Made by a program: the position numbers and the translations under genes. Positions 1,578 through 49,921 of a stretch of 57,889 nucleotides of DNA are shown here, piece by piece. The notes beneath the pieces are model-generated. The model had not been told where the DNA came from. It ran no database searches and worked only from the letters and a program-made list of their open reading frames with translations. The stretch's first letter is position 1, and every line of letters begins with the position of its first letter. Location: positions 1-57,889 of the IMG/VR virus record IMGVR_UViG_3300021131_000007; one strand, 5' to 3'. Origin of the DNA: a virus.

Positions 1578-2420
1578 ATGTCAAAACAAGCAGGTAGATA
1601 CTCAGAATCGGCAAATGATTTCTTGCAACCACTAGCTGTAACTTCACTTACAGCAACAGATGTAGGAACAAACAGACCGTACTCAGCAACAGCAAATACA
1701 ACATCAGCAGCTTCTGCAGCGGGAACAGGTGGAGCAGTAAATCTTTCTTGGACATTGCCTGCAAATTCTCCAGCAGCGACTTCTTATACTATTACGAGTA
1801 CTCCTGCAACGTACACCGTTAGTACTGGTTCCTCTACTCCTTCTTATACATTTGAAGGACTTGCTTCTAATACTTCTTATACATTTACAGTAGTTGCAAC
1901 TAATGCAGTAGGTAGCTCAGATGCAACTACTTCTTCATCAGTAACTGTAACAACAGTTCCAAATGCTCCACAAAGTCCATCTGCTACAGCTCAAGTTTTA
2001 TATGATACTATTGATTGGACAGATGGACAAAACGGCGGTCAAGCAATAACCAGTTACACCATAACATCAAGTGCAAATGGTTCTCAAACTGGAATTACTT
2101 CACATCCTTATAATTTTACAGAATCTGCAGGGGCACAAGATTATTATGTTGTATATGCACTAAATGCTAATGGAACTTCAGCAGCATCAGCACAAACAGG
2201 AACAGTAACAACACAAGCCCCATTCTTTCCTCCATTCTTTCCACCAGGGTTCTTTTCTCCACCAGGGTTCTTTGCCCCTCCAGGGTTTTTTCACCCACCA
2301 GGGTTCTTTGCTCCTCCAGGGTTTTTTCACCCACCAGGGTTCTTTTCGCCACCAAGATTTGGTACATCTTCAATTAGATTTAAAGAAGATGTTGTCGAGA
2401 TTATAAATATTAGTATATAA
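1578..2420 (+). CDS. Fibronectin-III tail protein with PPGFF repeats and the first part of an S74-type C-terminus
   Basis: The 280-residue protein starts at ATG with an AAGGAG ribosome site at 1562-1567. Residues about 45-130 and 130-215 look like two fibronectin type III domains (SYTITSTPATY and SYTFEGLASNTSYTFTVVATNA patterns). Then come six tandem Pro-Pro-Gly-Phe-Phe-X units and the segment FGTSSIRFKEDVVEI. This segment resembles the start of the peptidase S74 intramolecular chaperone domain, in which a Ser and a Lys five residues later (here SSIRFK) act in self-cleavage. The frame stops at 2420, and the rest of the domain continues in another frame from 2431. The repeat has Pro in X-Pro-Gly context, the site type used by collagen prolyl 4-hydroxylases, and hydroxylase genes follow downstream. 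I infer a tail-tip or fibre role and a possible modification substrate. Confidence 0.75.
   Translation: MSKQAGRYSESANDFLQPLAVTSLTATDVGTNRPYSATANTTSAASAAGTGGAVNLSWTLPANSPAATSYTITSTPATYTVSTGSSTPSYTFEGLASNTSYTFTVVATNAVGSSDATTSSSVTVTTVPNAPQSPSATAQVLYDTIDWTDGQNGGQAITSYTITSSANGSQTGITSHPYNFTESAGAQDYYVVYALNANGTSAASAQTGTVTTQAPFFPPFFPPGFFSPPGFFAPPGFFHPPGFFAPPGFFHPPGFFSPPRFGTSSIRFKEDVVEIINISI
2241..2348 (+). repeat. Six tandem 18-bp units coding Pro-Pro-Gly-Phe-Phe-X
   Basis: Units begin CCACCAGGG or CCTCCAGGG and alternate in a 36-bp higher-order pattern (X = Ser, Ala, His, Ala, His, Ser). They lie in frame inside the fibronectin-type tail gene. Unit number is likely to vary between relatives by slippage or unequal recombination. 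The proline before each glycine is in the context preferred by collagen-type prolyl 4-hydroxylases. Confidence 0.95.
2349..2387 (+). repeat. Copy 1 of a 39-bp dispersed repeat coding the S74-type start motif
   Basis: This stretch directly follows the PPGFF repeat and matches 35128-35166 at 37 of 39 positions. Both copies encode PPRFGTSSIRFKE and both follow a proline-rich tandem repeat, in genes 33 kb apart. This indicates recent duplication, gene conversion or strong conservation of the element. Confidence 0.93.
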
Positions 2421-2443
2421 TATAATTTAAATGATAAATATTA
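2403..2443 (+). repeat. Near-tandem 31-bp duplication that splits the S74-type gene
   Basis: The ten bases ATAAATATTA occur at 2403-2412 and again at 2434-2443, offset by 31. Removing one 31-bp period would restore a single frame running from the SSIRFKE motif into INFKEVIKKLRPVTW. The inserted stretch carries the TAA stop (2418-2420), AT-rich TATAAT-like sequence and the ATG of the next frame. It looks like an insertion or slippage event, or a deliberate split. Confidence 0.75.
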
Positions 2444-2724
2444 ATTTTAAAGAAGTTATAAAAAAACTTCGTCCAGTGACATGGATTTATAAAAACGATG
2501 AATCTAGAAAAAGATATATTGGATACATAGCTGAAGAATTATTTGAAGAAGAAGCATTTAAATATGTTGTTTCTTTAGATGAGGACGGGATTCCAAATGG
2601 AATTAGCTATGAGTCATTATCTATATATGCTTTAGAAGGTTTAAAAACAGCATATGCTGAAATAGAAAATTTAAGTAATAGGATTTCTTATCTAGAATCC
2701 AAATTGGATGAAAAGAGCAATTAA
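2431..2724 (+). CDS. C-terminal part of an S74-type intramolecular chaperone, separate frame
   Basis: The 97 residues contain KKLRPVTWIYK, YIGYIAEEL and PNGISYESLSIYALEGLK, followed by a C-terminal heptad-like helix (IENLSNRISYLESKL). This order matches the body of peptidase S74 domains, which assist trimer folding of phage fibres and are then cleaved off. The upstream half, with the Ser/Lys motif, is at the end of the preceding gene in another frame. No convincing ribosome site precedes the ATG, so translation may rely on re-initiation after the stop 10 bases upstream, or the gene may be a frameshifted remnant. Its stop at 2722-2724 is in the same frame as the following glycosyltransferase. 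Confidence 0.7.
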   Translation: MININFKEVIKKLRPVTWIYKNDESRKRYIGYIAEELFEEEAFKYVVSLDEDGIPNGISYESLSIYALEGLKTAYAEIENLSNRISYLESKLDEKSN

Positions 2725-3690
2725 ATTAAAATATTAATTTCCGTATCAAATTATTGCGATCCAGAATACGAAATGACAATAAGGTCTTTATGGGATAACG
2801 CTGGAATGAAAGAAAATCTTATATTTTCTTTAGTTTCAGAAGATTTTAAAGAATATGATTTTTCTTATATTCCAAGTAATCAATTATATTACAAACATTT
2901 TCCCCTAACAGAACATAGTCTTGAATATAGGGGCGGGGTATGCTGGTCTAGAAATCTTGCGACACAAGTTCCAGTAGATTATGATTATTATGTACAATTT
3001 GATTCTCATACATTAGCAGTAAAAGACTGGGATATTATGGCTTTGTCAGCTTATGAAAATTTAAAACATGTTTGGGATAAAATTATTATTTCTGGACACC
3101 CAGCAGATTATGAATATCTTCCAGATGGAACTATTAATTTTTATCAATTCCCACTTACTCCAACCTATGTAGAAAATTTAGAAGGCCTTGTTCCTGGTTA
3201 TACTTTTCCAAAATATAATTCAGTTCCACTTAAAGAATATAAAGAGTCTGCTTGGATAACTGGTTGTTATATATTTGCTCCAAAAGCTTGGGTAGATGAA
3301 ATAGGTATAGAAAAGCAATGGTCATTTAACGTTGAAGAATTTATGATGACTATAAAAAGTTTTAATTTTGGATGGAAAGTTTTAAGCTATGGACAAAGAC
3401 ACGTATTCCATCATTCCTCACATACACTTCCAGATGGATCTATAACTAGAAATAGATTTAGACCATGGGCAGATAGCAGGGCTAATGCTTACTGGCAACA
3501 TGTTTATAGAGAAACTGATAAATTATCATACTTTATGTCAGAACCTATAGAAGGAATGACTTGGATGGGATTGTATAACTTTTTTGATGTTAATAAATTA
3601 GATAGAAAATATTTAGAATATATTCCTGATTACCATCAATATGGAAAATCAATAAAAAGACAAAATCTTGGGATGCCCCCAAGAAATTAA
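2725..3690 (+). CDS. GT60-like glycosyltransferase (Skp1 GlcNAc-transferase family)
   Basis: The protein carries the two hallmarks of the GlcNAc family (GT60), whose known member Gnt1 of Dictyostelium adds GlcNAc to hydroxyproline of Skp1. The first is an N-terminal strand ILISVSNYCDPEYEMTI; the second is YYVQFDSHTLAVKDWD, with the D-x-H metal motif about residue 93-95 from 2725. The only ATG in frame is at 2773, which would delete part of the first motif. Homology therefore argues for a start at or near the ATT codon at 2725, directly after the previous stop. An ATG at 2708 would reach this frame if one A were added in the A-run near 2729, so an indel or frameshift is an alternative. Placement between proline-repeat tail genes and prolyl-hydroxylase-like genes suggests hydroxyproline glycosylation of phage proteins. 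Family call is firm by motif; substrate is inferred. Confidence 0.8.
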   Translation: MKILISVSNYCDPEYEMTIRSLWDNAGMKENLIFSLVSEDFKEYDFSYIPSNQLYYKHFPLTEHSLEYRGGVCWSRNLATQVPVDYDYYVQFDSHTLAVKDWDIMALSAYENLKHVWDKIIISGHPADYEYLPDGTINFYQFPLTPTYVENLEGLVPGYTFPKYNSVPLKEYKESAWITGCYIFAPKAWVDEIGIEKQWSFNVEEFMMTIKSFNFGWKVLSYGQRHVFHHSSHTLPDGSITRNRFRPWADSRANAYWQHVYRETDKLSYFMSEPIEGMTWMGLYNFFDVNKLDRKYLEYIPDYHQYGKSIKRQNLGMPPRN

Positions 3691-3727
3691 ACATGATATA
3701 CTAACATACATAGTAGATAGGAAAACT

Positions 3728-4441
3728 ATGAACAACTATGACAGTTCATACCCATTACAACCCAACTGGTCAGCACAAGAACAGCTATTTAACGGAGTTT
3801 GGGTTTATAGAAATATATTCAAAAAAGATATAAATATTATAGATAGATTAAATCAAATTGGTCAGCAAGCAAATGTTGATAACGATTCTAGATATGAATG
3901 GACTTTTGGTTTTGTTGGATATGCAGATAAAAGACCAGAATATAGAGACTGTGAAGATATAAAAATTGGTCAAATAGATTATCCAAGAAATCAAACAGAA
4001 CAATATGTTGGCGATCTTTGGAAAGACTTAAGGTCAATACAAAATCCAGCAGTGCAAGATTATTGCAGCAGATATTCATTAAGAATGAATTATTGGGAAG
4101 TAATGAATTGTATTAAATACGGACCAGGACAACACTTTCAAGAACACGCTGATCATGGATTTTCTTATAGTGCTACAGTTTCTTTAGTTGGTTATCCTAA
4201 TGATGATTATACTGGAGGAGGACTATATTTTCCTAAATTAGGTTTAGATATAAAGCCTACAGCAGGAGATTTATATATATTTCCATCAACCTATCTATTT
4301 TCGCATGTAGCTAAACCAGTTGAATCTGGAACAAAATATTCTATAGTTACAATGCTAGATTACAATGATCATGCTCATAATCAAGAATTTATGCAAATGC
4401 GAGAAAAATGGGTTAGAAATGAACAGCATAAAAGCTTTTAA
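3728..4441 (+). CDS. 2OG-Fe(II) oxygenase, prolyl-4-hydroxylase type (paralogue 1)
   Basis: This is a 237-residue double-stranded beta-helix oxygenase that should couple oxidation of 2-oxoglutarate to hydroxylation of a substrate side chain. Visible residues are His140 and Asp142 (EHADH) and distal His193 (FSHVAK) for iron, with Lys203 placed to bind 2-oxoglutarate. The core NDDYTGGGLYF and IKPTAGDLYIFPS is typical of prolyl 4-hydroxylase-like members. The frame is open further upstream to an ATG at 3668 overlapping the glycosyltransferase. I prefer 3728, which has AGG seven bases upstream and a conserved beginning. It is the first of seven oxygenases in this cluster. Substrate is unknown; the neighbouring proline-rich tail proteins are candidates. 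Confidence 0.85.
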   Translation: MNNYDSSYPLQPNWSAQEQLFNGVWVYRNIFKKDINIIDRLNQIGQQANVDNDSRYEWTFGFVGYADKRPEYRDCEDIKIGQIDYPRNQTEQYVGDLWKDLRSIQNPAVQDYCSRYSLRMNYWEVMNCIKYGPGQHFQEHADHGFSYSATVSLVGYPNDDYTGGGLYFPKLGLDIKPTAGDLYIFPSTYLFSHVAKPVESGTKYSIVTMLDYNDHAHNQEFMQMREKWVRNEQHKSF

Positions 4442-5117
4442 AGTAAGAGGAGAAGGATACGGCATTCTTTCTCAACTTTCAGTTAAAAGAGACTGGATGG
4501 ATAATACTTGGGAAGCACATGCTTATAAATGTTTTCCAGTAAGTTTAACTAATCAATTAGGATGGGGAATTTCATTTCCTGAAGATATTACTTTTATCTG
4601 GGATGGCATTTCAGATTCTTCTCCAGATCATGTTAAGATTCTTAAAGGGGAAAAGTATGCTTATTCTGGACGGGCTAACGCTACAATAAGTTTTAATACA
4701 GGAATTAGGTTTGTTACAAATTCTGACATTTCATTACTGCAAATGCCAGTTCCAAACTACCCAAGAGATGGGGTTTCTCCTTTTACTACTTTAATAAGTA
4801 CATCTTTTTTTCAAGGAGAGATTCCAGTAGCTTGGCAAATAACTAAACCAAATGTTGAAATTACAGTAAAAGCCAATACTCCCATTATATCTATTTTGCC
4901 AATTAATTTAAGTGAATTACAAAATTCAGAAGTTGTTTTTGAAGATATTTTAACAATGAAACATTTTATAGAAAATCCAGAAGAGTACGGTAACCTTGTT
5001 TATGAAATTAATAGAACTGGAAAATGGACTAATTTTTATAGAGATGCCGTTGATCATAAAGGAAATAAACTTGGAGAGCATCAAGTAAAAACAATTAAAT
5101 TGCACGTTAAAGAGTAA
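4419..5117 (+). CDS. DUF6065-like protein
   Basis: The 232-residue protein overlaps the preceding oxygenase by 23 bases. It starts at ATG 4419 (MNSIKAFKVRGEG), because the earlier in-frame ATGs would add residues unlike the rest. The pattern WMDNTWEAHAYKCFPVSL, then NQLGWGI, a WDG motif, GIRFVTNSDISLLQMPVPN and a final TPIISILPI strand agrees with my memory of DUF6065, a family of unknown function. No HxD iron motif is seen, so it is not another canonical 2OG oxygenase. Its position between two oxygenases suggests a part in the same modification pathway, possibly as a sugar- or cofactor-related beta-sandwich protein, but that is speculation. Confidence 0.65.
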   Translation: MNSIKAFKVRGEGYGILSQLSVKRDWMDNTWEAHAYKCFPVSLTNQLGWGISFPEDITFIWDGISDSSPDHVKILKGEKYAYSGRANATISFNTGIRFVTNSDISLLQMPVPNYPRDGVSPFTTLISTSFFQGEIPVAWQITKPNVEITVKANTPIISILPINLSELQNSEVVFEDILTMKHFIENPEEYGNLVYEINRTGKWTNFYRDAVDHKGNKLGEHQVKTIKLHVKE

Positions 5118-5139
5118 ATCTTGTTTTTTTTTATAAATA

Positions 5140-5148
5140 TGGTAAAAT
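5140..5148 (+). promoter_or_regulatory. Putative extended -10 promoter (TGGTAAAAT)
   Basis: This element lies in a 59-base gap 28 bases before the next oxygenase start, just after a T-rich tract. It differs by one base from the TGGTATAAT element found at six other intergenic sites. No -35 is recognised. Confidence 0.45.
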
Positions 5149-5176
5149 TAATATATAGTCGAAAGTAGATAACCTA

Positions 5177-5911
5177 ATGGTTGAAAATAACTGGAATAAA
5201 AACGAAATACCGCAATCAATAACTCCTTCTGGATTTTTTGGCAATTCTTCTGATAATATTGTTGAATTAGAAAATTTTATAACAGAATACGAGCAAAATA
5301 AACTTATGACATTTGCATTAAATAATAAAATTTGGGACGAGACAGAAACACACGTAGATAAAGACGGACTAGTGTTATATGATGCCAATATTTGGAAAGA
5401 TAGAGTTTGTACATACAATTCTTTAATGGCTTCCGACCCATCAATCCTAGAATTAATTTATGATATGATTCGCAGATTAAAAATCGAAGTAGACAAATTT
5501 TTTAATGTAGATGTTAAAGAAACTGGACCAGCTATAGTTAGATGGCCTATAGGTTCAAGACAAGAACCACATGCAGATAAAGAATTTTGGGTGGGTGAAG
5601 AAATGGGAAGACCAAATGATTTTCCTTGGTATGATATAGCTGGATTGTTTTATTTTAATGATGATTACGAAGGAGGGGAACTATACTTTCCCCAACACGG
5701 TATAGAGTTTAAGCCAAAAGCAAGGGCAGCTTATTTTTTTCCAGGAGATAGATATTATGCTCATGGAGTAAGACCTATAAAATCTGGTAATAGATTTACA
5801 TCTCCATTTTTTTGGACAATTAAAAAACATACTGGAGAAAAACAACCTCCAGTAGGATATATTGGTGGATTTGAAAATCCAGAATATAAAAAACTATTTG
5901 AGGGTGAATAA
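5177..5911 (+). CDS. 2OG-Fe(II) oxygenase, prolyl-4-hydroxylase type (paralogue 2)
   Basis: The 244-residue protein has the iron triad His132-x-Asp134 (PHADKEF) and His196 (AHGVRP), with Arg206 in the 2-oxoglutarate position. FNDDYEGGELYFPQHG and KPKARAAYFFPGD form the jelly-roll core. The N-terminal 110 residues form the usual helical support. It is preceded by a short gap holding a promoter-like element, so a transcript may start here and run through the next oxygenases. The next ATG follows after one base. It is clearly related to, but strongly divergent from, its neighbours, which implies old duplication or separate acquisition. Substrate unknown. Confidence 0.87.
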   Translation: MVENNWNKNEIPQSITPSGFFGNSSDNIVELENFITEYEQNKLMTFALNNKIWDETETHVDKDGLVLYDANIWKDRVCTYNSLMASDPSILELIYDMIRRLKIEVDKFFNVDVKETGPAIVRWPIGSRQEPHADKEFWVGEEMGRPNDFPWYDIAGLFYFNDDYEGGELYFPQHGIEFKPKARAAYFFPGDRYYAHGVRPIKSGNRFTSPFFWTIKKHTGEKQPPVGYIGGFENPEYKKLFEGE

Positions 5912-5912
5912 G

Positions 5913-6764
5913 ATGAGTCAAATAAATTTAAGAACTGATATTAATAATCTGGATTGGATAGAGCTTTATCCTAATGTAATTGTTTATCAAAACATGTTAA
6001 ATAATCCAGAAGAAGCTTATAAAATTATGATGAATTCAGAGCAATCTGCTGAAGGAAAATATTTTTTTAAAAAATGGGATCTTTGGGCTAGTTTTGGAAC
6101 CTACACACAAGCAAAATTTGGAGAAGATCTAAATGATGCACAATTAGGTTCAGAGTTTGATCAAGAAAAAAATCTTTTTGATGAGATAGCGATAGCTTAT
6201 GATAAAGCTATTTCTCATTATTTTCAACATACTGGAATAGATATTCCAGAAAAAGCAAGATATAGTGGTCAATCTTGGTGTAAATATTTTAATAAAATTG
6301 ATACTTTAAAGAATAAAATGACAATGCAATATCACACAGATTATATTGTTTCTGAAAGAGATATGCCAGGTGAAAAGTTTCATACAACTTGTACTTTTTA
6401 TATAAATGATAATTACAATGGTGGGAATCTTGAGTTTTATATTAATGGTACTATAGTAAATCATAAACCAAAAGCTGGAGACCTTGTAATATTCCCATCA
6501 ACACAACCATATTTTCATGGAGTAAAAACCATTCCAGATGGTAATAAGTTTTTTATTAGAAACTTTGTAATGTCTGATTATGAAGGATCAAAAGAATGGT
6601 TAGATAATCAAAAAAAGTTTGGTGCCTATAGATGGGCAAAAAAAGAATTTGAAAGAATAGATTACGAAAATCCAAGAAATATGATGTATCTGCAAAATGG
6701 AAAAATTATTTCTTATGATGATCTCATGAAAATCAATGAAAAAGAAGGTCAAAATGAAGTATGA
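5913..6764 (+). CDS. 2OG-Fe(II) oxygenase (paralogue 3)
   Basis: This 283-residue member is longer than its neighbours because of an insert-rich N-terminus and a 60-residue C-terminal extension after the core. The triad is His141, Asp143 (YHTDY) and His202 (FHGVK), with Lys212 in the co-substrate position; INDNYNGGNLEFY and HKPKAGDLVIFPS are the core strands. I start it at ATG 5913, just after the previous stop, with GAGGG upstream; an earlier ATG at 5862 would overlap the previous gene. It overlaps the next gene by 11 bases. Role: probable hydroxylation of a protein or small-molecule substrate; not further defined. Confidence 0.85.
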   Translation: MSQINLRTDINNLDWIELYPNVIVYQNMLNNPEEAYKIMMNSEQSAEGKYFFKKWDLWASFGTYTQAKFGEDLNDAQLGSEFDQEKNLFDEIAIAYDKAISHYFQHTGIDIPEKARYSGQSWCKYFNKIDTLKNKMTMQYHTDYIVSERDMPGEKFHTTCTFYINDNYNGGNLEFYINGTIVNHKPKAGDLVIFPSTQPYFHGVKTIPDGNKFFIRNFVMSDYEGSKEWLDNQKKFGAYRWAKKEFERIDYENPRNMMYLQNGKIISYDDLMKINEKEGQNEV

Positions 6765-7506
6765 TGCAGTATCTGAAGACATTCATATTTATAAAAATTT
6801 TTTAACAGAAGATGAATCTAAAAAAACTTTAGATGTAATTTTAGAGTATGCTGAAAGATTTCCAGATTACTGGAAAGGGATTTCTTTTTATGAATCATAT
6901 TCAGCTGGGTACCCTGAAGTGGGAGACCCCATTTTTAAAAAATATAGCTTGCCAGATGATTGGTTTGAAATACTTATAGATAGATTTAAAGAAGCAGCCT
7001 CTATAGTTGCTGGAGTAGATAAAGACAAAATGTCAAGAATAAGTTTTCATGTACAAAGATGGCTTCCAGGGGCATATGCTCCATTGCATTCAGATAATTC
7101 GAGTAACGAAGGCGTTATGGGTGCATTTACTAGAAGTAGGTATGCTGGATTTATGTATTTAAATGATGATTTTGAAGGCGGTTTGTTAAAATTTCAAGCA
7201 GAGCATGGAAAAAATAATATAGAATTAAAACCAGAAGCAGGAATGTTTGCGATCTTTCATGGTGGACATAAAAATATGCATGAAGTTTCTATTGTTAAAC
7301 ATGGAACTAGATACACTTTAGGTTCATTTTGGGATGATAGAGAAGAATCAGATTACCCCCAAGAATTACGTGATGAATGGGCTAAAGAACTTGCTGAAGT
7401 TAGAGCTATGCAAAAAGAACAACAAAAAGATTGGCAAGAAGTAAGGAAAAAGGGTAAAAGACTTTCTCCTTATGGAGAAGAATATAAAGCTGAGGAAGTA
7501 GAATAA
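6754..7506 (+). CDS. 2OG-Fe(II) oxygenase (paralogue 4)
   Basis: The 250-residue protein has His112-x-Asp114 (LHSDN), distal His176 (MHEVS) and Arg186, plus LNDDFEGGLLKFQ and KPEAGMFAIFHGG. The motif set is complete, so it should be active. ATG 6754 is chosen because AAGG lies seven bases upstream; an alternative ATG at 6736 would add six Lys-rich residues. The C-terminal 60 residues are charged and helical (MQKEQQKDWQEVRKK) and may be a partner-binding tail. The stop overlaps the next start in TAATG, indicating translational coupling. Confidence 0.86.
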   Translation: MKYDAVSEDIHIYKNFLTEDESKKTLDVILEYAERFPDYWKGISFYESYSAGYPEVGDPIFKKYSLPDDWFEILIDRFKEAASIVAGVDKDKMSRISFHVQRWLPGAYAPLHSDNSSNEGVMGAFTRSRYAGFMYLNDDFEGGLLKFQAEHGKNNIELKPEAGMFAIFHGGHKNMHEVSIVKHGTRYTLGSFWDDREESDYPQELRDEWAKELAEVRAMQKEQQKDWQEVRKKGKRLSPYGEEYKAEEVE

Positions 7507-8174
7507 TGCAGTCATCTAATGCTAATATTATAAATGAAAAAAAACAATATATAATGTTTAATCTTATTATGTTACATCCAAATATTTGGTACTGGGAAAA
7601 TGTAATAAGTTCTCCAAAAGAATTAGTTGATTTTATCAATGAAGTGGATTCTGACAAAAGATCTTATGATGCAATATCTTCTTGGAGCCCATGGACCGCA
7701 AGCGATGACAAAAATCTTGTTTATGGATCCGTCAAAACAATTAACAATCAATATAATAAAATTAATACTGGAGACAATAGATTAGATCAAAAAACATTAT
7801 ATATAATAAATAGTTTAAAAATGGCTATTGAAATGTGCTCTGAAAGATATATTTTAGGACACAAATTAGATGTTAATAAATATAATTTAGATCAAAGAAT
7901 GCTTTCTATTAAAAGATGGAATGAGGGACAAAGCATGGGTCCTCATTTTGATGGGCAAGACGGACATTCTGATTTAGGTTTTTCTTTAGTAACTTACCTA
8001 AATGATGACTACGAAGGTGGAGAAATACATTTTAAAGATCATAACATTACAGTTAAACCAAAAGCTGGAAGTTTAATAATGTTCCCATCTCAGATGCCGT
8101 TTGTACATGAAGTATTACCAATAACAAAAGGTACCAGATATATGATGCCAACTTCTGTTTTAACCTTGCCGTAA
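7506..8174 (+). CDS. 2OG-Fe(II) oxygenase, prolyl-4-hydroxylase type (paralogue 5)
   Basis: This compact 222-residue member has His147, Asp149 (PHFDGQDGHSD), distal His201 (VHEV) and Arg211. TYLNDDYEGGEIHF and VKPKAGSLIMFPS are nearly consensus for the prolyl 4-hydroxylase group. The start is coupled to the previous stop (TAATG); a second ATG at 7554 (MFNLIML) would also leave the domain intact. The gene ends the second transcription block: the following 37-base gap holds a promoter-like element. Substrate unknown. Confidence 0.87.
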   Translation: MQSSNANIINEKKQYIMFNLIMLHPNIWYWENVISSPKELVDFINEVDSDKRSYDAISSWSPWTASDDKNLVYGSVKTINNQYNKINTGDNRLDQKTLYIINSLKMAIEMCSERYILGHKLDVNKYNLDQRMLSIKRWNEGQSMGPHFDGQDGHSDLGFSLVTYLNDDYEGGEIHFKDHNITVKPKAGSLIMFPSQMPFVHEVLPITKGTRYMMPTSVLTLP

Positions 8175-8178
8175 TTAA

Positions 8179-8187
8179 TGGTATAAT
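8179..8187 (+). promoter_or_regulatory. Extended -10 promoter (TGGTATAAT)
   Basis: An exact TGGTATAAT lies in the 37-base gap before the oxygenase at 8212. The expected transcript start leaves room for the GAGGAAAA ribosome site. No -35 hexamer is recognised. Confidence 0.6.
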
Positions 8188-8211
8188 CTATTTAGAATTG
8201 AGGAAAATATT

Positions 8212-9066
8212 ATGTTTTTTGATAGACCAGATTGTATAACTCTTTCTAGCTATATAGATGCTTATGGAACCCCTAGTGGAGTTTTTGTTTTAAAAAACGT
8301 AATTGATCCAGAATTAATTAATAAAATAGAACAAGATCTAAAATTAATAGAAGAAAAATCTTTAAAGAATACAAGTGGATTGATAAACTGGTATGTTGAT
8401 AAAACAGTTGATCCTTTTGTAGATACTATGTACATATGGGAAAAGATGAGTGAAATACTTTCCCCTACACATGTCCTACACCCACAAGCAGGTTTACTGA
8501 AAGTAAAACCAGGTGATGATGGTATGTTTATTCACGCAGACAGCCCAGGTAAAGGACAATGCCATCTTCTTTCACAAAGAGATACATGGTCAACATGTTG
8601 CCTTTTGGATTATGGGGTAGTTACATATTTAGGAGATTGGGAAGGTGGAGAGGTCTTTTATCCAAATATTAATCCAGATGGAACAATAAAAGATCATCTT
8701 AAAGACGGTCCAGAATGCTTAGAATATAAACCTGAAAGAGGAGACATTATTATTCATTCCGCATTTGATCCTTATTCACATGGAGTTAGAGAAGTAACAT
8801 CTGGAATTAGATATGCTTTTTCAAATTTTTCTCTTAAAGCAATTGATAATCCTGGAACATTTTATAATTATGGAACTTCAGAATATTTTGAACAAATAGG
8901 TAAAAACGTACAGGAAAAATCAGTAACTGATGAACAATTAAAAAATTGGCTACAGCCTTTAAAGATAAACCCGCAATTTACCGAAGAAGCAATATTAAAA
9001 ATGCAACAATCTGGACTTGAAGGTGAAGATCTAGCTAAAACATTCTTTGCAGACATGAAAGAATAA
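8212..9066 (+). CDS. 2OG-Fe(II) oxygenase (paralogue 6)
   Basis: The 284-residue protein has His108-x-Asp110 (FIHADSPG), distal His190 (YSHGVR) and Arg200. It differs from its neighbours by a longer loop between the iron residues (about 75 residues, with several Cys) and the core YLGDWEGGEVFYPN in place of NDDYEGG. Such long loops often shape substrate choice. A C-terminal helical region of about 75 residues follows. It has its own promoter-like element and ribosome site (GAGGAAA). The next gene begins four bases after its stop. Activity as a hydroxylase is expected from motifs; substrate unknown. Confidence 0.86.
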   Translation: MFFDRPDCITLSSYIDAYGTPSGVFVLKNVIDPELINKIEQDLKLIEEKSLKNTSGLINWYVDKTVDPFVDTMYIWEKMSEILSPTHVLHPQAGLLKVKPGDDGMFIHADSPGKGQCHLLSQRDTWSTCCLLDYGVVTYLGDWEGGEVFYPNINPDGTIKDHLKDGPECLEYKPERGDIIIHSAFDPYSHGVREVTSGIRYAFSNFSLKAIDNPGTFYNYGTSEYFEQIGKNVQEKSVTDEQLKNWLQPLKINPQFTEEAILKMQQSGLEGEDLAKTFFADMKE

Positions 9067-9070
9067 ACAA

Positions 9071-9670
9071 TTGAAATCAATAGAAGAAGTAGCAATTGGC
9101 ATATATAAAATAGATAATTTTATATCAAAAGATGCTTGTGTTTTTTTAAAAAAATATTTAAATCAAGATTTATATGAAAGTCCAAGATATAATATTTATG
9201 GATCTCTTGGGTCGGAATATCCAAAATATTTAGAAATGATAGGTAATTATAAAGAAGACCCTGATTATAATATTGCAATTGATTTGTTTAATTCTATAAT
9301 TTTGTCTTTTAGTAGTCCAGTTTCTTTTATGTTTAAAGAAGATCATATATTAAAACAAACTTACTATAGCGTCATGAAAAATGATAGCGAAAATGAAATT
9401 CATTTAGATAATTATTATTATGACGAATCTGGAGCCCTACAAATAAAAGATGGCTACTCACAAGATAAATCGGCAATGTTATATTTAACCGATGACTACG
9501 AAGGTGGAGAGTTATATTTTCCAAATCAAGATTTTTCAATTAAGCCAAAAGCAGGAACTATGATTTTCTTTGAAGGGGATCACAATAAACCTCATGGAGT
9601 AAAAAAAGTAATTTCTGGGGAAAGATGTAATATAATTACTTTTTTTGAACCTAGGAGTTTAAATGGATAA
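9071..9670 (+). CDS. 2OG-Fe(II) oxygenase, prolyl-4-hydroxylase type (paralogue 7)
   Basis: This is the smallest oxygenase of the cluster, 199 residues from a TTG at 9071. The iron ligands are His111-x-Asp113 (IHLDN) and His175 (PHGVKK), with Arg185 for 2-oxoglutarate; LTDDYEGGELYFPN and IKPKAGTMIFFEGD are consensus. No in-frame ATG would keep the conserved first strand, so the TTG start is favoured. It closes the cassette and overlaps the next small gene by eight bases. Confidence 0.86.
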   Translation: MKSIEEVAIGIYKIDNFISKDACVFLKKYLNQDLYESPRYNIYGSLGSEYPKYLEMIGNYKEDPDYNIAIDLFNSIILSFSSPVSFMFKEDHILKQTYYSVMKNDSENEIHLDNYYYDESGALQIKDGYSQDKSAMLYLTDDYEGGELYFPNQDFSIKPKAGTMIFFEGDHNKPHGVKKVISGERCNIITFFEPRSLNG

Positions 9671-32600: not shown

Positions 32601-33013
32601 GTTCTTTAGGTGGAGATAGGTATTATAGTAGTCAGATCTGGGGAATAAAAATTGGTCAAAGTTCTGCAGGAACAAGAATATCAGGTATTCCAATCCAAGG
32701 AGATGCTGATTTAAATAACTGGACAAACGGAGCAACAATTTATCCAGCAAATGGAGAACCTTATTTTCTATCAGATGGAAGTACAGTTCGTTATGGAACT
32801 GGTTCTGTTTCAGTAACCGCTACTGGACATTATAAAAATGCGGGATCTGGAAGTACTGGTTTAGGAGATAAACCAAGACAAAGAATGATTATTGAAGATC
32901 CAGTTACTGGAGAATTGCAATTAGGTATGGCAGTTTATTATAGAAACGCTGGTTCATCTGGAACAGCACCAACCAATTCTGGTTATGTAGGAGATTTGTG
33001 GGTTGATTACTAA
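29669..33013 (+). CDS. Large tail fibre / minor tail protein
   Basis: At 1114 residues it is a modular beta-rich protein. Residues 90-420 contain fibronectin-like domains (NLVATWDDQDNLVLNFTWNP, ASIAWSSNDIVVTFAQP). The second half has fibre-shaft repeats of the kind 'KFSVTPAGKVSARDITIYG' and 'FSVKGDGSITASNASISGA', seen in long side-fibre and tip proteins. It overlaps the next gene by one base. It is likely part of the host-recognition apparatus. No chaperone domain of its own is visible. Confidence 0.72.
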   Translation: MQDKKIEYQSGATVAQRAPIYIDVNRDPRARNQSYLNLYASRVGAQVVAVDVINGTVIASSNVDILNSATGSGVGGVSNTISASLPIPTPGVPPLPVTNLVATWDDQDNLVLNFTWNPSDPSNQYAYKFVIEVRDSTTNKYYVLNAGYGYTAQSFITPSSSSQTITISYSDLSSVIELISNINQVGVASADYAQTGDYVFADVPALVSHLPQPTISLSKGTDYYVVSVTNLSSALAKSNFYGIIVEENVTTETLKSNVSLTNGWVQASALTTTSPITIYAPDDAHRWVRVKFVGKSGMPSVYSDIADITPDAFIPVNTNPPTQFASASIAWSSNDIVVTFAQPASNAGTTVKVKMVPYINGSESNSLYAFYYHVIVGSETSFNITSGDLYNQFGAYYSTYKAYITSVSNQGIETTDAVIIAGPATRTTSLSTVTPTASVTNTTDGYVVQFDLGSSGANFGEVYQFYISPTFTSIDLPDYMDATYSSSGTNTIVVSSITLENGDYSLPSGHTVNEFIGTGITGNGIQPNTYVTNISGTGPYTLTLSQNIDSINYGTPSGNYHMQSLVYSGKGPANIFSTYYNDMYVTVFYYDNYDNRSQSSNIKTVHPINPAESLITNAVQVGGTAGAIYVGSSASTGARILLGVDSYYNSNNSHSGIFAYDGSATTGSSPTTSIISNASNGGFTFSTINAKIADWTISSDKIQNTLDTVSNYVGMSGTGTYSFWAGSATSGGDSSAKFSVTPAGKVSARDITIYGSGNNSDTLISAGSYFSVKGDGSITASNASISGALTVSQQSYFNADVNISSGSYLNSVGTGTVRIGAQGLLALDTSSAATTKIYSSPITVNGTSGISLWSKRALFGSNESSGWLISDGVIQSDYITMDSSNHYIKIVSQTSNSTNGIQLSAGADSDYAIKAGNLSGTPDFWVKHDGSLKASNATITGTVSSSIVRGGKNSVDDGNSGYYLDASGSAALISYNTSSLGGDRYYSSQIWGIKIGQSSAGTRISGIPIQGDADLNNWTNGATIYPANGEPYFLSDGSTVRYGTGSVSVTATGHYKNAGSGSTGLGDKPRQRMIIEDPVTGELQLGMAVYYRNAGSSGTAPTNSGYVGDLWVDY

Positions 33014-35205
33014 TGGGTTTTTGGGTAAAAAAAGATCAATCAACTTGGGCTCCTGTTAAAAAAGTTTGGGTAAAAACAACATCTGGATCTGGAGCATGGA
33101 CTTCAGCTAAAAAAATATGGGTTAAAGTTATAGGTGGATGGAATTTGTTTTGGCCATCAAATGGGCCATATGCAACAACTCCCCCATCAATAACTCAATA
33201 TACAAATGGTACTGGTAAATATACAAATGAAATAATTTATGGAAGCAATACTTATGGACAAAAAGGTGTATGGGTAGCAAATAGTAGTACATCATCAATT
33301 TCAAGTTATGCTTATAATATTTATACTTCGGATTCCCCTACTCCTGGCGGAACAGAAACATTACAAGAAGGCCCTACAACATTTAGTGGAACCTATCATA
33401 CTATAGATAATACTTTGTATGATGGAAAATATTTAATTTTTGAAGTAGTAGCAACAAGAACAGACGGCACATCAGGAACAGATAGCAGTGATACTGGAAA
33501 TTCTATAAGACCTTTTGTTCATAGAAGTATCCCAGTAATATCCACATATTCTTTAAGTCAAGGTACAGGAGCTTATTTAAATACAATTACTTATACATCT
33601 CAATGGGATTATAGTCAAAGCGATTTGCCAGATTACACTAGGGCAACAGTCGAATTATATAGAAATAGCTCAAGTTCAACTTCTGGCGGGACTCTTGTTG
33701 CAACGGGAACAAGTACAGATAATGGATATACTTATACATCTTCAGTTTCATATGATATGTACACGGATGCAGTTAATAATGATGGTAAATATTTTTATGT
33801 AGTAGAAAAACAATACAATTCTGGAACTGATTTTTCAGGATCTGGTCCAGTAATAAATACTATAAGTCGGGGACCATTTTCAGTAACAATGCCACCTGAT
33901 GCATTTAGCTACAGTATTGCAGATACAACTGCAAGCGTTTATTGGGGAGATCCAGGAGCAACGGTTGCTCAAAGCGGTAATTACGTAGCAGTTAACTGGA
34001 ATGATACTGCATATCCAAGAACTGGTTATTTAGTTTCTGTATCAGGTCCAGTCAATAATGGGCCAGATGATGTGGGAATAACATCTTTCAAGACATATCC
34101 ATTAACTTCCTCTGGATATGAATATGCAACAATAACTGCATACAATTCTAATACTTATTGTACAATTACATGTACTCCAGGAAACAATACATCTAGTTAT
34201 TTATATTCTTATACTCCTGATGGATTTACTCGTGTAACAGCAACCACATCATCTAATACTTATAAATTTTCTGTATCCCCAGGATCAACAGCAACTGTAT
34301 ATTATGTTATGGCTTATTCTGGTGCAAATCAAACAGGACTATCAACGCAAGGAACAGGAGTAGTATCATCAGCTACGCCTACTGCAAAATATGCAAGTAG
34401 TGGTCAAGCAGGTCCTATATATATGCAACAATATGTAGGAGCATCTATATCTTCAGCTTACATAACTCCTTCCAGCGTTACCTTAGATACTCAAAATGGA
34501 AATGGAACTTTTTATTGCATTGTTTCTGCATCTGGATATCCATCTCCATCTATTTATTATAGTTGGCAATTTTTTAGCGGAGGATGGAATGATTTAGGAG
34601 TAACCACATCGTACTTTACACCTTCTTATTCAGGTTATCCTTTTAGATGTGTTGTCACAGCACTTAATGCATACGGCTCTCAAACAGTAGATACTGGATC
34701 AGTAACTGCTTCTTGGAATCCTCCTAGACAGTTAACTGGCCCATCCATATCTGGTAGTGGAGTTGCTGGCACATATATTTCTTTTTCTGGAGGAACTTAT
34801 GCAAATGGTTCATCTTCAAATGATTTAGCAGAAAGTATTAACCCTGCAAGCTTTTCATCGAGTTCACCAAGTGCAGCATCAACTAGTCCTTATAGAGTAA
34901 CAACATCAGATGCATCATCTCCAGCTTGGTATTTTGCATCAAGAGATTCTGTATTTGGAAATAATGGAAGTAATTATACATATTTTTCTGGATCTATCAT
35001 GGCAACTCTTCCTCCACCTACTTTTAATCCAGCACCACCTAATTTTTCACCAGCACCACCTAATTTTCCACCAGCACCACCTAATTTTCCACCAACTCCA
35101 CCTAATTTTCCTCCTACCTTTTTTGGTCCACCAAGATTTGGTACATCTTCTATTAGGTTTAAAGAATCTATAATTAAAATTAATAATATTCATGAGGTAA
35201 TGTGA
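33013..35205 (+). CDS. Proline-rich tail protein with Ig/FN-like domains and a short S74-type tail
   Basis: The 730-residue protein begins with three WVK-type repeats (FWVKKDQ, VWVKTTSG, IWVKVIGG), followed by several fibronectin- or Ig-like domains. Near the end are four 7-residue APPNFPP units, then PPRFGTSSIRFKESIIKI and only about eight more residues. The last motif matches the S74-type start in the tail gene at 1578, but here the chaperone body is missing altogether. The shared pattern of proline repeat plus FGTSSIRFKE suggests a common function: self-cleavage site, docking tag or modification signal. The proline repeat is a candidate substrate of the phage's prolyl-hydroxylase-like enzymes. 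Confidence 0.75.
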   Translation: MGFWVKKDQSTWAPVKKVWVKTTSGSGAWTSAKKIWVKVIGGWNLFWPSNGPYATTPPSITQYTNGTGKYTNEIIYGSNTYGQKGVWVANSSTSSISSYAYNIYTSDSPTPGGTETLQEGPTTFSGTYHTIDNTLYDGKYLIFEVVATRTDGTSGTDSSDTGNSIRPFVHRSIPVISTYSLSQGTGAYLNTITYTSQWDYSQSDLPDYTRATVELYRNSSSSTSGGTLVATGTSTDNGYTYTSSVSYDMYTDAVNNDGKYFYVVEKQYNSGTDFSGSGPVINTISRGPFSVTMPPDAFSYSIADTTASVYWGDPGATVAQSGNYVAVNWNDTAYPRTGYLVSVSGPVNNGPDDVGITSFKTYPLTSSGYEYATITAYNSNTYCTITCTPGNNTSSYLYSYTPDGFTRVTATTSSNTYKFSVSPGSTATVYYVMAYSGANQTGLSTQGTGVVSSATPTAKYASSGQAGPIYMQQYVGASISSAYITPSSVTLDTQNGNGTFYCIVSASGYPSPSIYYSWQFFSGGWNDLGVTTSYFTPSYSGYPFRCVVTALNAYGSQTVDTGSVTASWNPPRQLTGPSISGSGVAGTYISFSGGTYANGSSSNDLAESINPASFSSSSPSAASTSPYRVTTSDASSPAWYFASRDSVFGNNGSNYTYFSGSIMATLPPPTFNPAPPNFSPAPPNFPPAPPNFPPTPPNFPPTFFGPPRFGTSSIRFKESIIKINNIHEVM
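35032..35115 (+). repeat. Four tandem 21-bp units coding Ala-Pro-Pro-Asn-Phe-Pro-Pro
   Basis: Units two and three are identical; unit one has Ser for the sixth residue and unit four starts with Thr. They lie just before the second copy of the S74-type motif, as the PPGFF repeat does in the gene at 1578. The unit sequence differs from PPGFF, so the two repeats were built separately in the same place. Confidence 0.94.
35128..35166 (+). repeat. Copy 2 of the 39-bp dispersed repeat coding the S74-type start motif
   Basis: It matches 2349-2387 at 37 of 39 positions and encodes the same PPRFGTSSIRFKE. Similarity ends abruptly on both sides, which fits conversion or strong selection on the motif. 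Confidence 0.93.
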
Positions 35206-45337: not shown

Positions 45338-46336
45338 ATGACATTAGTAGCAGAAGAAATATTAGCACGTCTGGATCCAAAAACTAGACAACGCATCCAA
45401 CTTGCTACAGATGTCAGTGCTGAAAGGCAAAAGACTCCGAGTATTGGATTAAATATAGCTCTAAAGGGTGGTCTAGGATATGGTAGGCAAATCCTTGTTT
45501 GGGGTAACAAGTCTGCAGGAAAGTCATCATTTTGTTTACAGATGATTGGAATGGCACAGAAAGAAGGAAAAACTTGTGCTTGGATTGATTCTGAACATTC
45601 TTATGATGCAAAGTGGGCTGAAAGTTTAGGAGTGGATTCAACTTCCCTTATCTACTCCTCAGCAAAAACTATCAATGATATGGTAGATGTTGCAACACAA
45701 TTAATGGAAGCGGGAATAGATATTATTGTTGTGGATTCTATATCAGCATTACTCCCAGCAATTTATTTTGAAAAAGATAGCACTGAATTAAAAAAGTTGG
45801 AAGATACAAAACAAATTGGTGCCGAGGCAAAGGATATGACACATGCAGTCAAAATGCTTAATTACTCTAACAAAAATACGTTACTCGTTCTTATTTCTCA
45901 ACAGAGAAATCAATTTGGTTCTATGCATGCGTCGCATATCCCAACAGGGGGCATGGCAGTTAAGTTTTTCTCCAGCACTGTTATTAAGCTTTGGTCTTCG
46001 GAAGCCGAAGCAAATGCTATTAAATCTGGAATCAAAGTTGGTGATAAGATACTTGAACAAAAAGTTGGACGGCCCGTTAATTGGATCATTGACTACAATA
46101 AACTTGGACCAATGGGACAAAGCGGTCAGTACGATTTTTACTACCAAGGAGATCAAGTTGGAATTGATTCCGTTGGAGAAATATTAGACGCTGCAGAAAT
46201 GATGGGAGTCATTCAAAAAGGCGGGGCTTGGTACACAATCAATGAAGAGCGTTTTCAAGGTAGAAGTAAAGCCTTAGATTATCTCAGAGATAATCCTGAT
46301 GTGGTAAAATTATTACAAGAGAAGATATATGAATAA
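45338..46336 (+). CDS. recA: RecA-like recombinase
   Basis: The 332-residue protein has Walker A GNKSAGKSS at 56-64, CAWIDSEHSYDAKWAESLGV after it, Walker B IIVVDSISALLP near 128-139 and the L2-type LISQQRNQFGSMH with PTGGMAVKFFSS. These are in the order of bacterial RecA, which forms filaments on single-stranded DNA for strand exchange. It is slightly shorter than cellular RecA and lacks the long acidic C-terminus. It lies behind the polymerase, so it probably serves replication-linked repair. A TGGTAAAAT at 46302-46310 within its end may start the next transcript. Confidence 0.9.
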   Translation: MTLVAEEILARLDPKTRQRIQLATDVSAERQKTPSIGLNIALKGGLGYGRQILVWGNKSAGKSSFCLQMIGMAQKEGKTCAWIDSEHSYDAKWAESLGVDSTSLIYSSAKTINDMVDVATQLMEAGIDIIVVDSISALLPAIYFEKDSTELKKLEDTKQIGAEAKDMTHAVKMLNYSNKNTLLVLISQQRNQFGSMHASHIPTGGMAVKFFSSTVIKLWSSEAEANAIKSGIKVGDKILEQKVGRPVNWIIDYNKLGPMGQSGQYDFYYQGDQVGIDSVGEILDAAEMMGVIQKGGAWYTINEERFQGRSKALDYLRDNPDVVKLLQEKIYE

Positions 46337-47285
46337 AATAAAAATAATGGATCAGGTAACAGTTTATCAGGATGTTTTTTCTGATTCTGATTTAAATATG
46401 TTATTGGATGAAATAAATAAATCAGAAATTGAAGATGATAAAAAATATGATCCATCCGAAATTGATCCAGATAATTCTGCTTATTTAAACGAACACGGAC
46501 CCCAACCTCAGGATAAAAATGACGGGAGTTTAATTTACACATGGACTCCTTGGTATACTTATGGTAAAAGAAGTATTTGGAATCATCCATCAGATTTTAA
46601 TCAAGAAAATAAACAACATGTTGGATTCAATTTATTAAAAAATAGTGTTTTGAAAACACATTGTGATTATGTAAATGAATGGGCTAAAGATGGTAAATGG
46701 ACATATGATATACAGGATTGGAACATCGGAGAGACCGAAGAAGATCCTATGGTTATGTCAACTTTGGAAATTCTTAAGCATAAAAAAAATAATGATGAAA
46801 AGTATACCATTCCAGTGCACACAGATTGGCATAATCAAAGGGTAGATGAACCTGGACCAAAACAAATTCTTACCTACACTATTTATTTAAATGATGATTA
46901 TGATGGGGGAGAAATAGATTTTATTGATGAAACAAATTCAAAGCTTATAGTCTATAAACCTAAGCGTGGTGATATAACTGTATTTCCTTCTGGAAGACCA
47001 TATTGGCACGGAGCACGTGCAGTCACATCAGACAAAAGTAAAATATTTATTAGAACTTTTGCTTTATATAGATATCCAGTTACAGAAAAATGGATTAACG
47101 GTTTAATGGTTTACGGACCAACTGAATTTTTAAGAAAAGAAAATGAAAGATTAAAATCAATAGTAGATTCTGGTATAGCAGGTAGACAAGCGGTTCCAAG
47201 AGGCGGAGGCTCAGATCCAGCTAATCCAAATCCAACAATTTATTATGATGAAGAAATTTATATAGATGGTAGGATTATTAATTGA
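46329..47285 (+). CDS. 2OG-Fe(II) oxygenase (paralogue 8, outside the cluster)
   Basis: The 318-residue member has the full triad His164, Asp166 (PVHTDWH), His227 (WHGARA) and a Lys about ten residues later. YLNDDYDGGEIDF and YKPKRGDITVFPSG form the core. It is larger than most of the cluster members, with an acidic N-terminal region and a C-terminal tail ending in a Gly/Pro-rich stretch. It overlaps recA by eight bases and lies 37 kb from the other seven, next to small genes. It may act on a different target, such as a replication protein or nucleotide, or share the tail substrate. Confidence 0.86.
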   Translation: MNKIKIMDQVTVYQDVFSDSDLNMLLDEINKSEIEDDKKYDPSEIDPDNSAYLNEHGPQPQDKNDGSLIYTWTPWYTYGKRSIWNHPSDFNQENKQHVGFNLLKNSVLKTHCDYVNEWAKDGKWTYDIQDWNIGETEEDPMVMSTLEILKHKKNNDEKYTIPVHTDWHNQRVDEPGPKQILTYTIYLNDDYDGGEIDFIDETNSKLIVYKPKRGDITVFPSGRPYWHGARAVTSDKSKIFIRTFALYRYPVTEKWINGLMVYGPTEFLRKENERLKSIVDSGIAGRQAVPRGGGSDPANPNPTIYYDEEIYIDGRIIN

Positions 47286-48434: not shown

Positions 48435-49214
48435 TTGACTGTTACAACACTTAAAATAAAAAAGAAGCCAGGGGGCTTTGACAAAGAAAAGTTTCTCCAA
48501 GAATACTTTGATTCATTTGAGTCAAAATCTGGTTTTACAGAAAAGAAAACATTCTCTCCAAGCACACTTGGTTATGGCCACGGTAATTGTGCTAGGTATT
48601 GGTTTATAGCGTTTAATGGGGCGGAATTTGAAGATACTGCTAAACCATTAGCTAAAGCTGCTATGGAAAATGGAACATTTACTCACGATAGACTCCAGGC
48701 AAGATTTAGCAAAATGAATAAATCATATAAGGTTATTGCCCATGAAGTAGATACTACCTTTCAAGATCCACCAATCCATGGATTTATGGATACAGTAATT
48801 CAAGATATAGAAAATGATTTAACTATTGCTATTGAAATAAAGTCTGCAAAAGATGAACAATGGGTAGTTAAAAATTCTAGTTTAGAGCCATCAGATAATC
48901 ATAGGATTCAATTGCTTTCCTATATGAAGATCTGGGGCTATAAATATGGAGCATTTTTTTATGAAGATAAAAATGATCAAACTCCACTTATGATTGTTAT
49001 TGAAATGGACGAAGATAATACTAAATTAATTGATTATGTATTTGAATGGCTTCGTGGTGTTTATGATCTTTATTTGGCTGAAACCTTGCCAAATAGAGCC
49101 TTTACAAAATCTACGTGGGCTTGTAAGGGATGTCCAGTTAAAAATGTTTGTTGGAAAGATATGAAAACGGAAGAGGGCGAAGTTGAATATCCAGCCATGG
49201 TGACTAAACTATGA
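48435..49214 (+). CDS. Cas4/RecB-like PD-(D/E)XK exonuclease with iron-sulfur Cys
   Basis: The 259-residue enzyme starts at TTG 48435, directly after the previous stop. The nuclease core is Asp119 (HGFMD), Glu134-x-Lys136 (AIEIKSA) and Gln159 in the following helix. Cys52 (GHGNCARY) together with Cys230, Cys233 and Cys239 (CKGCPVKNVC) matches the four-Cys iron-sulfur cluster of Cas4 and AddB nucleases. Phage Cas4-like proteins usually work in recombination or end processing. There is no CRISPR array here, so a DNA-repair role beside RecA is the better reading. Confidence 0.82.
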   Translation: MTVTTLKIKKKPGGFDKEKFLQEYFDSFESKSGFTEKKTFSPSTLGYGHGNCARYWFIAFNGAEFEDTAKPLAKAAMENGTFTHDRLQARFSKMNKSYKVIAHEVDTTFQDPPIHGFMDTVIQDIENDLTIAIEIKSAKDEQWVVKNSSLEPSDNHRIQLLSYMKIWGYKYGAFFYEDKNDQTPLMIVIEMDEDNTKLIDYVFEWLRGVYDLYLAETLPNRAFTKSTWACKGCPVKNVCWKDMKTEEGEVEYPAMVTKL

Positions 49215-49921
49215 AAAAAGCAATAGGCTTTACTGCATTTGACAGAGTTGAATATCTTAATAAAGCTCTTGCTTCTTGGTCCGATGTAAGAAATTTAAGA
49301 GATTATGATTTTTATTTTTTTATAGAACCTTCAAATCGTTATAATGAAATAGTACAAATAATTAAAAATTTTCAAAATAATACAAATATTAAAACAACTA
49401 TTATTTCTAATCCTGAAAAATTAGGATGTGCTACAAATACTTGGTCTGTATTTGAATTTTTATTTAAACTATATGATTTTGTTATTTTGGCAGAGGATGA
49501 TGTTGTTGTATCAAAAGATGTATTAGAATATTTTAATTTTGTTGAAGAAAAGTATCGCAATGATGAAGAAATAGCAATTGTATCTGCAAACACTAAATGG
49601 GATACAAAAGACCCTATTAAATTAATTAGAGAGCAAGGATTTAATGGTTTAATCTGGGGAACTTGGAAAAAATATTGGACAAAATATTTTGAACATAATT
49701 GGGAAAAAGAACCATTTCCAGGGGCCGAGCATTCAGGTTGGGACTGGCATTTAAATATTAACATGCTTCCATTTAATAAGCTTAAAAATATTAATCCAAT
49801 GGTATCAAGATCAAACCATATTGGTTTAATTGGAGAACACTGTACTCCAGAACTTTTTGATTTAACAATATCTCCGTCTTTTAATTTAGACAATCAATGG
49901 GATATGCTGGAGGAAGTATGA
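49211..49921 (+). CDS. Glycosyltransferase, GT-A fold (GT13-like)
   Basis: The 236-residue protein starts AIGFTAFDRVEYLNKALASW, a nucleotide-sugar strand-helix, and has FVILAEDDVVVS near residues 90-100, the E-D-D metal motif. A late acidic motif is in GWDWHLN (Asp178), followed by SRSNHIGLIGEHC. This layout is close to GT13 (N-acetylglucosaminyltransferase I and relatives). It is a second glycosyltransferase beside the GT60-like enzyme and could extend or diversify a glycan on phage proteins, or modify DNA. Its location among replication genes leaves both open. Confidence 0.7.
   Translation: MKKAIGFTAFDRVEYLNKALASWSDVRNLRDYDFYFFIEPSNRYNEIVQIIKNFQNNTNIKTTIISNPEKLGCATNTWSVFEFLFKLYDFVILAEDDVVVSKDVLEYFNFVEEKYRNDEEIAIVSANTKWDTKDPIKLIREQGFNGLIWGTWKKYWTKYFEHNWEKEPFPGAEHSGWDWHLNINMLPFNKLKNINPMVSRSNHIGLIGEHCTPELFDLTISPSFNLDNQWDMLEEV

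Follow-up and report, generated by a model that had tools for sequence, protein, structure and literature searches.

The window analyzed here, a 57,889-base IMG/VR virus record (IMGVR_UViG_3300021131_000007), contains a tail-protein gene that ends in proline–phenylalanine (P-F) repeats and is followed by seven oxygenase genes of the prolyl 4-hydroxylase (P4H) type, members of the 2-oxoglutarate (2OG)-Fe(II) oxygenases. The tail-protein, chaperone, glycosyltransferase, oxygenase and DUF6065 genes described below all lie on the plus strand. Its portal protein is ~50–54% identical to portals of Streptomyces phages, Coruscant and Muntaha among them; the record therefore derives from a tailed phage, probably with an actinobacterial host. 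Relatives nearer than these Streptomyces phages are uncultured.

Genes of the locus

The gene at 1578–2420 encodes the likely substrate, a tail protein with an fn3 domain (PF00041, 4.4e-10) and similarity to the central tail fiber J group (PHROG 31, 7e-6). Its PPFF/PPGFF repeat region at 2220–2360, read directly, is PFFPPFFPPGFFSPPGFFAPPGFFHPPGFFAPPGFFHPPGFFSPPRFG; PPGFF units are separated by S, A or H, and each PPG is an X-Pro-Gly unit, confirming the tail protein with X-Pro-Gly repeats that an earlier note on this DNA had described. Behind the repeats stands the stub GTSSIRFKEDVVEIINISI (2361–2417), the N-terminal part of an S74 chaperone domain, which is split: instead of continuing in cis at the fiber C terminus, the remainder forms a separate open reading frame (ORF) in another frame (2431–2724; PF13884, 24.7 bits, cut-off 22, profile positions 15–51). 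A frameshift or assembly error behind this split was considered and rejected, as locus L414 is split identically. The second proline-rich tail protein of the earlier note (33013–35205) carries PPxF repeats (35011–35139), is homologous to a PPGFF-repeat protein of record G041 and ends in PPRFGTSSIRFKE, as does the first. Judged by sequence, this shared motif is the start of the S74 chaperone domain and not a modification motif. In the second protein, the S74 stub (35140–35202) has no chaperone ORF behind it, so a single S74 chaperone may serve both tail proteins in trans.

The oxygenase array comprises ox1 (3728–4441; PF13640, 7.5e-11; HAD...H...K), ox2 (5177–5911; 3.2e-6; HAD...H...R), ox3 (5913–6764; 6.6e-9; HTD...H...K), ox4 (6736–7506; 3.3e-9; HSD...H...R), ox5 (7506–8174; 1.6e-13; HFD...H...R), ox6 (8212–9066; PHROG 61, 4e-5; HAD...H...R) and ox7 (9071–9670; PF13640, 1e-11; HLD...H...R). 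Better starts than those opening the ORFs are ATG 3728 for ox1 (ORF from TTG 3668) and ATG 5913 for ox3 (ORF from TTG 5862). An eighth enzyme, ox8 (46329–47285; PF13640, 1.5e-12), lies outside the array and probably differs in role. The curated PF13640 cut-off is passed by ox1–ox5, ox7 and ox8 and missed by ox6, which was recognized through PHROG 61. All eight enzymes contain the HxD...H iron triad and a basic 2OG residue, and ox1–ox7 each retain HxD, the distal H and the 2OG-binding R or K, in agreement with the seven intact P4H-type enzymes counted in the earlier note. Two further genes precede and interrupt the array: a GT60-type protein glycosyltransferase gene (2725–3690) ahead of ox1 and a DUF6065 gene (4365–5117) between ox1 and ox2.

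A profile built from 30 such oxygenases was compared with solved structures. The best match was BaP4H, a Bacillus-type prolyl 4-hydroxylase (2.6e-18), and further matches included prolyl 3-hydroxylase 1 (P3H1), the algal-type CrP4H, PHD2, the collagen lysyl hydroxylase LH3 and, at 2e-4, the procollagen lysyl hydroxylase and glycosyltransferase entry 6ax6. By this comparison, the solved relatives of the cassette oxygenases are mainly protein hydroxylases. Orthologues of ox2 up to 84% identical occur behind PPGFF proteins, and orthologues of ox6 (~60% identical) occur in L014, L111 and L052. Across loci, the catalytic residues are intact in 414 of 447 oxygenase hits, with truncated hits counted. 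Collagen P4H acts on proline preceding glycine, and the PPG of PPGFF offers a proline in just this position.

Oxygenases beside proline–phenylalanine repeats in other phages

PPGFF loci were collected by scanning IMG/VR for DNA able to encode PPGFFxPPGFF, leaving oxygenases unused in the selection. The PPGFF-type pattern proved common to at least 120 viral loci, and the counts given below are samples of the matches listed. Since 257 Gb of prokaryotic genomes yielded only five matches, all chance-like and pointing to no host, the repeats are no chance pattern. After PP, glycine clearly outnumbers every other residue, in a set partly selected for PPGFF. Behind the repeats comes a Hint-like domain (with weak intein and Hint matches in L085), an S74 domain or, no more than 30 residues on, the end of the protein; should the Hint-like and S74 domains cut themselves off, the mature protein would have the repeats at its tip. 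A different repeat, PPVYYNPPVYYN, with Tyr for Phe, is present at L073 (170–970), where oxygenases and DUF6065 also lie behind.

At least one P4H-like oxygenase was found at 99 of the 120 PPGFF loci (362 oxygenases in total) and, after dereplication, in 57 of 64 clusters, several of the rest being short fragments. Oxygenase density was 3.29 per 10 kb at PPGFF loci versus 0.026 at 47 loci selected for another common tail motif, GTLTNKTL (one gene, at 1/47 loci, in 392 kb; Fisher 1.5e-23); a limit of this comparison is that this set, like the second control, was drawn from phages and environments other than those of the PPGFF loci. On this basis, the idea that tail regions are generally rich in oxygenases was rejected. 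For the second control, 68 loci were taken in which collagen-like GPP repeats are in frame; four of these had oxygenases, and a general link of P4H-type oxygenases to any collagen-like repeat was likewise rejected.

The association is also directional and ordered. Within 6 kb of the repeat gene, 317 oxygenases lay downstream and two upstream, and in 94 of 179 cases a same-strand oxygenase was the next gene after the repeat gene, with a median gap of 69 bp. Typed by best window homologue, the oxygenases at most loci read 1-2-3-4-5, 1-1-2-3-4-5 or a version with fewer members or a small change of order, and the usual cassette order is repeat protein–ox1–DUF6065–ox2–ox3–ox4–ox5, with one to three DUF6065 genes between ox1 and ox2. 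For cyanophage 2OG-Fe(II) oxygenases, an action on host metabolism has been proposed, for example through 2OG consumption that shifts nitrogen signalling (available text of PMC3037559; repeated in PMC4164917). As an account of the present genes we regard it as highly unlikely, since it does not explain why six diverged paralogues keep a fixed order, occur only downstream of a single repeat type and are absent beside other tail proteins.

Records chosen independently of the repeats gave a concordant picture. Among 22 long records picked by portal protein, six had P-F repeats, and five of these encoded 6 to 16 oxygenases. All five records with at least six oxygenases had P-F repeats, and none of the 16 repeat-free records exceeded three. 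The sixth P-F record, G047, falls outside this group because it begins ~2.3 kb before the portal gene and its start leaves out the cassette position. Several P-F-positive records hold the repeat at two distant places, as the window does. Two other records, G043 and G015, show no recognizable similarity to the window in portal, capsid, tape measure or terminase, and yet both encode PP-x-FF repeat proteins accompanied by oxygenases and DUF6065. The arrangement in G015 and comparable loci differs, the first oxygenase pointing toward the repeat gene, and in G043 the repeat found by a stricter pattern lies ~11 kb from the oxygenases. The association is, therefore, not confined to one phage lineage.

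These data bear on the idea that repeat protein and oxygenase array merely travel together on a mobile tail module, linked by descent without interacting. Many loci do come from related phages, with G003, G004, G016 and G041 sharing portal and terminase with the window. We nevertheless consider linkage by descent alone unlikely: oxygenases persist across the dereplicated clusters, the association recurs without recognizable portal, capsid or terminase similarity and in a different gene arrangement, and the catalytic residues are kept in the great majority of hits even with truncated ones counted.

DUF6065 and the slot ahead of the first oxygenase

DUF6065 (PF19541, 4.5e-28) is a conserved component of these cassettes. 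Loci found from DUF6065 had oxygenases in 77 of 77 cases and P-F repeats in 62 of 77, and in six long records DUF6065 was confined to the cassettes, with other oxygenases scattered. An AlphaFold2 model (predicted local distance difference test (pLDDT) 89) shows a dUTPase-like beta-clip fold (Foldseek 1.3e-4). The VIA matches were dUTPases only (Z 11.2, 122 residues, root-mean-square deviation 5.3), and other functions remain compatible with them. The window protein reads LISTS where another DUF6065 subfamily keeps GIIDxD, a site that we take to correspond to dUTPase motif 3. It lacks the Asp of that catalytic motif, which the other subfamily retains, and is thus probably not an active dUTPase.

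The dUTPase-like fold invites a reading in which DUF6065 handles nucleotides while the oxygenases and GT60 hypermodify phage DNA, first oxidizing a base and then adding a sugar. DNA-hypermodifying glycosyltransferases are known from phages (cited in the available text of PMC12619734). We find such a role very improbable, given that the oxygenase profile matches protein Pro/Lys hydroxylases and PKHD, with no TET/JBP or AlkB at E ≤0.01, that the oxygenase genes belong to the tail module and immediately follow the repeat protein gene, that the GT60 model is closest to polypeptide transferases and that the window DUF6065 has LISTS in place of the dUTPase-like GIIDxD.

The GT60 gene occupies the position between repeat protein and ox1. 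When checked against PF11397, its product scored 42.1 bits (cut-off 21), bearing out the GT60-like enzyme of the earlier note. Translation probably begins at ATT 2725 rather than ATG 2773, because the frame is open upstream to the stop at 2722–2724 and homology needs the first strand, KILISVSNY. This ATT directly follows the chaperone ORF stop, and no ATG, GTG or TTG suits the homologous N terminus. The enzyme keeps the DSH motif (VQFDSH), consistent with a GT-A fold with a DxH-type metal motif, and its AlphaFold model (pLDDT 83) is closest to polypeptide N-acetylgalactosamine (GalNAc)-transferases (Foldseek 8.6e-10), including GalNAc-T2; some of these were solved with mucin peptide. A single-protein search with the window GT60 returned no viral relative and matched no phage isolate. 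Alignments of all GT60 or all DUF6065 sequences were too diverse for patterns, and a DNA pattern and a subset were used instead; the DNA-pattern search gave at least 119 GT60 loci, whose counts again refer to the matches listed. In the relatives at L014 (2385–3392) and L080 (4212–5201), CGH replaces DSH, so that these copies are possibly inactive or altered transferases.

The contents of this slot vary. Across 156 repeat genes, a set that does not include the window, the core follows directly in 105; filled slots most often contain a sulfotransferase (30) and an Asp/Asn beta-hydroxylase (27), and GT60 occurs there, as in the window, only in L014 and L092. Both enzymes, the sulfotransferase matching PF03567 and the Asp/Asn beta-hydroxylase matching PF05118, lie between repeat gene and ox1 at L116 (3800–5072) and ~30 loci like it. 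The presence of the PF03567 enzyme in this slot suggests sulfation as an alternative capping step.

The earlier note had proposed a hydroxylation–glycosylation system and a survey for co-occurrence of its three elements. Its oxygenase–repeat part is supported by genome context and solved relatives, and oxygenases do accompany the repeats at most loci. A strict pairing of P4H and GT60, as for Skp1, did not hold: GT60 was present at two of the 120 PPGFF loci besides the window, and only 11 of 119 GT60 loci had oxygenases. None of the 119 had P-F repeats, and 32 had Pro/Thr-rich ORFs, which were the direct upstream neighbor of GT60 in 14 of 107 cases (p 3.5e-6 versus other ORFs). GT60-type genes 50–160 bp downstream of Thr-Pro-rich proteins were seen in L298, L349, L347, L326, L316 and L333, where mucin-like glycosylation of phage proteins without oxygenases is possible. 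Acceptors published for GT60 enzymes include the hydroxyproline of Skp1 and, in Trypanosoma cruzi, a polypeptide (PMC6939170). With these acceptors and the Thr-Pro neighbors, phage GT60 looks like a tail-repeat transferase in at least part of the cases, the Skp1-like combination being rare.

The same observations leave appreciable, though clearly lesser, room for a division of labor in which the oxygenases alone modify the P-F repeats and GT60 acts elsewhere, for example on Ser/Thr of another tail protein or a host surface protein. The loci that lack oxygenases and P-F repeats, the Pro/Thr-rich neighbors and the inclusion in GT60 of a Trypanosoma polypeptide N-acetylglucosamine (GlcNAc)-transferase besides the Skp1 enzyme fit it; the location of GT60 in the window, L014 and L092, in a slot that holds modification enzymes elsewhere, does not. 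This division is compatible with repeat hydroxylation, and our likelihoods for the two are not mutually exclusive. In this phage, glycosylation of the repeats by GT60 is plausible, and its target could be hydroxyproline or the Ser of SPPGFF units.

Away from the cassette, a GT25-like gene (49211–49921; PF01755, 24.3 bits, barely over the cut-off) has no link to it; the GT25 family includes collagen galactosyltransferases. This gene, DUF6065, the S74 chaperone ORF and ox8 had all been absent from the earlier note.

A proposed tail-repeat cassette and known systems

That the cassette oxygenases hydroxylate the P-F repeats of the tail protein is, in our judgment, probable. Hydroxylation is strongly supported by genome context and the closest solved relatives, because conserved order, downstream-only position, two negative controls, recurrence in unrelated lineages and structural kinship all point the same way. 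Several observations weigh against it. The modelled nucleotide-enzyme fold of DUF6065 would have no explanation in such a cassette, GT60 is rare beside PPGFF, and its closest relatives, in L014 and L080, have lost the Asp of DSH. The cassette was found in no cultured phage within the collection searched, and records of related phages contain scattered oxygenases away from any repeat.

Gene content, intact active sites, gene order and the specific, one-sided linkage are observed directly; from them we infer a reaction, a substrate, an order of steps and a benefit. Positions 2220–9670 would constitute a tail-protein modification cassette, in which a fiber-like tail protein has its PP(G)FF repeats at or near the mature C terminus, left there by the S74 module or, in other phages, by a Hint-like domain or a stop codon. 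Six or seven diverged prolyl-hydroxylase-type oxygenases may then hydroxylate repeat residues using O2, Fe(II) and 2OG; the likeliest targets are the X-Pro-Gly and Pro-Pro prolines, and each enzyme perhaps has its own site or its own repeat protein. DUF6065 would be an obligate helper. A capping enzyme may occupy the slot between repeat protein and ox1: in the window, GT60 would probably add N-acetylhexosamine to hydroxylated or Ser-containing repeats, and in other phages a sulfotransferase with an Asp/Asn beta-hydroxylase could take this part. Since GT60 is optional and the slot is elsewhere empty or filled by these two enzymes, the likely system is a hydroxylation core with a variable glycosylation or sulfation cap. 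The outcome would be a tail tip with chemical decorations that alter adhesion, stability or recognition. We lean slightly toward the broader view of a widespread assembly line in uncultured phages, with site-specific enzymes hydroxylating a proline–aromatic tail tip that then receives a sugar or sulfate cap.

Phage 2OG oxygenases are very common and usually read as metabolic genes. If the proposed function is true, a large class of them would be reassigned from metabolism to virion maturation, and the linkage to a single kind of tail repeat, ordered and on one side only, provides a concrete, testable substrate for at least one large oxygenase group. The cassette further gives an entry point to the chemical variation of phage tail tips, and its modular enzymes form a natural set for proline-repeat modification. 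We know of no earlier hydroxyproline-type modification of a phage virion. No paper on prolyl hydroxylation in phage tails came up in a literature search that covered few subscription journals or preprints. PHROG 61, the group matched by ox6, is among the most frequent phage groups with human structural hits in the Phold paper (PMC12774648).

Hydroxylation followed by glycosylation is a known kind of system, and the multi-enzyme version for phage tail repeats is undescribed in the literature searched. Bacterial prolyl 4-hydroxylases of the BaP4H type are encoded by a single cellular gene. BaP4H (3itq, 5hv0), the best solved relative of the oxygenase profile (~3e-18), shares the active site of the cassette enzymes but, unlike them, is not known to be linked to tail proteins. 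Cyanophage 2OG-Fe(II) oxygenases belong to the same superfamily and occur several per genome; in the available text of PMC3037559 they are assigned to nitrogen metabolism, with no proline-repeat link described. Mycobacteriophage virion glycosylation (Freeman 2023, through the citing text available in PMC12619734) likewise involves virion-protein glycans affecting recognition, but concerns capsid and tail tube subunit C termini, with no hydroxylation step in that text. As far as the available parts of PMC5802723 and PMC9546862 describe them, mimivirus L230 and related enzymes are virus-encoded and hydroxylate and then glycosylate repeat proteins, but they do so on lysine in collagen in a eukaryotic virus, whereas the cassette has separate, multiple prolyl-type enzymes and non-collagen repeats. 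The Skp1 pathway of Dictyostelium and Toxoplasma, in which GlcNAc is added to hydroxyproline (PMC6939170), pairs enzymes of the same two families, P4H-type oxygenases and GT60 transferases. Where Skp1 involves one hydroxylase and one proline, the cassette has six or seven oxygenases, tandem repeats in a virion-type protein and an optional GT60 with a putative acceptor.

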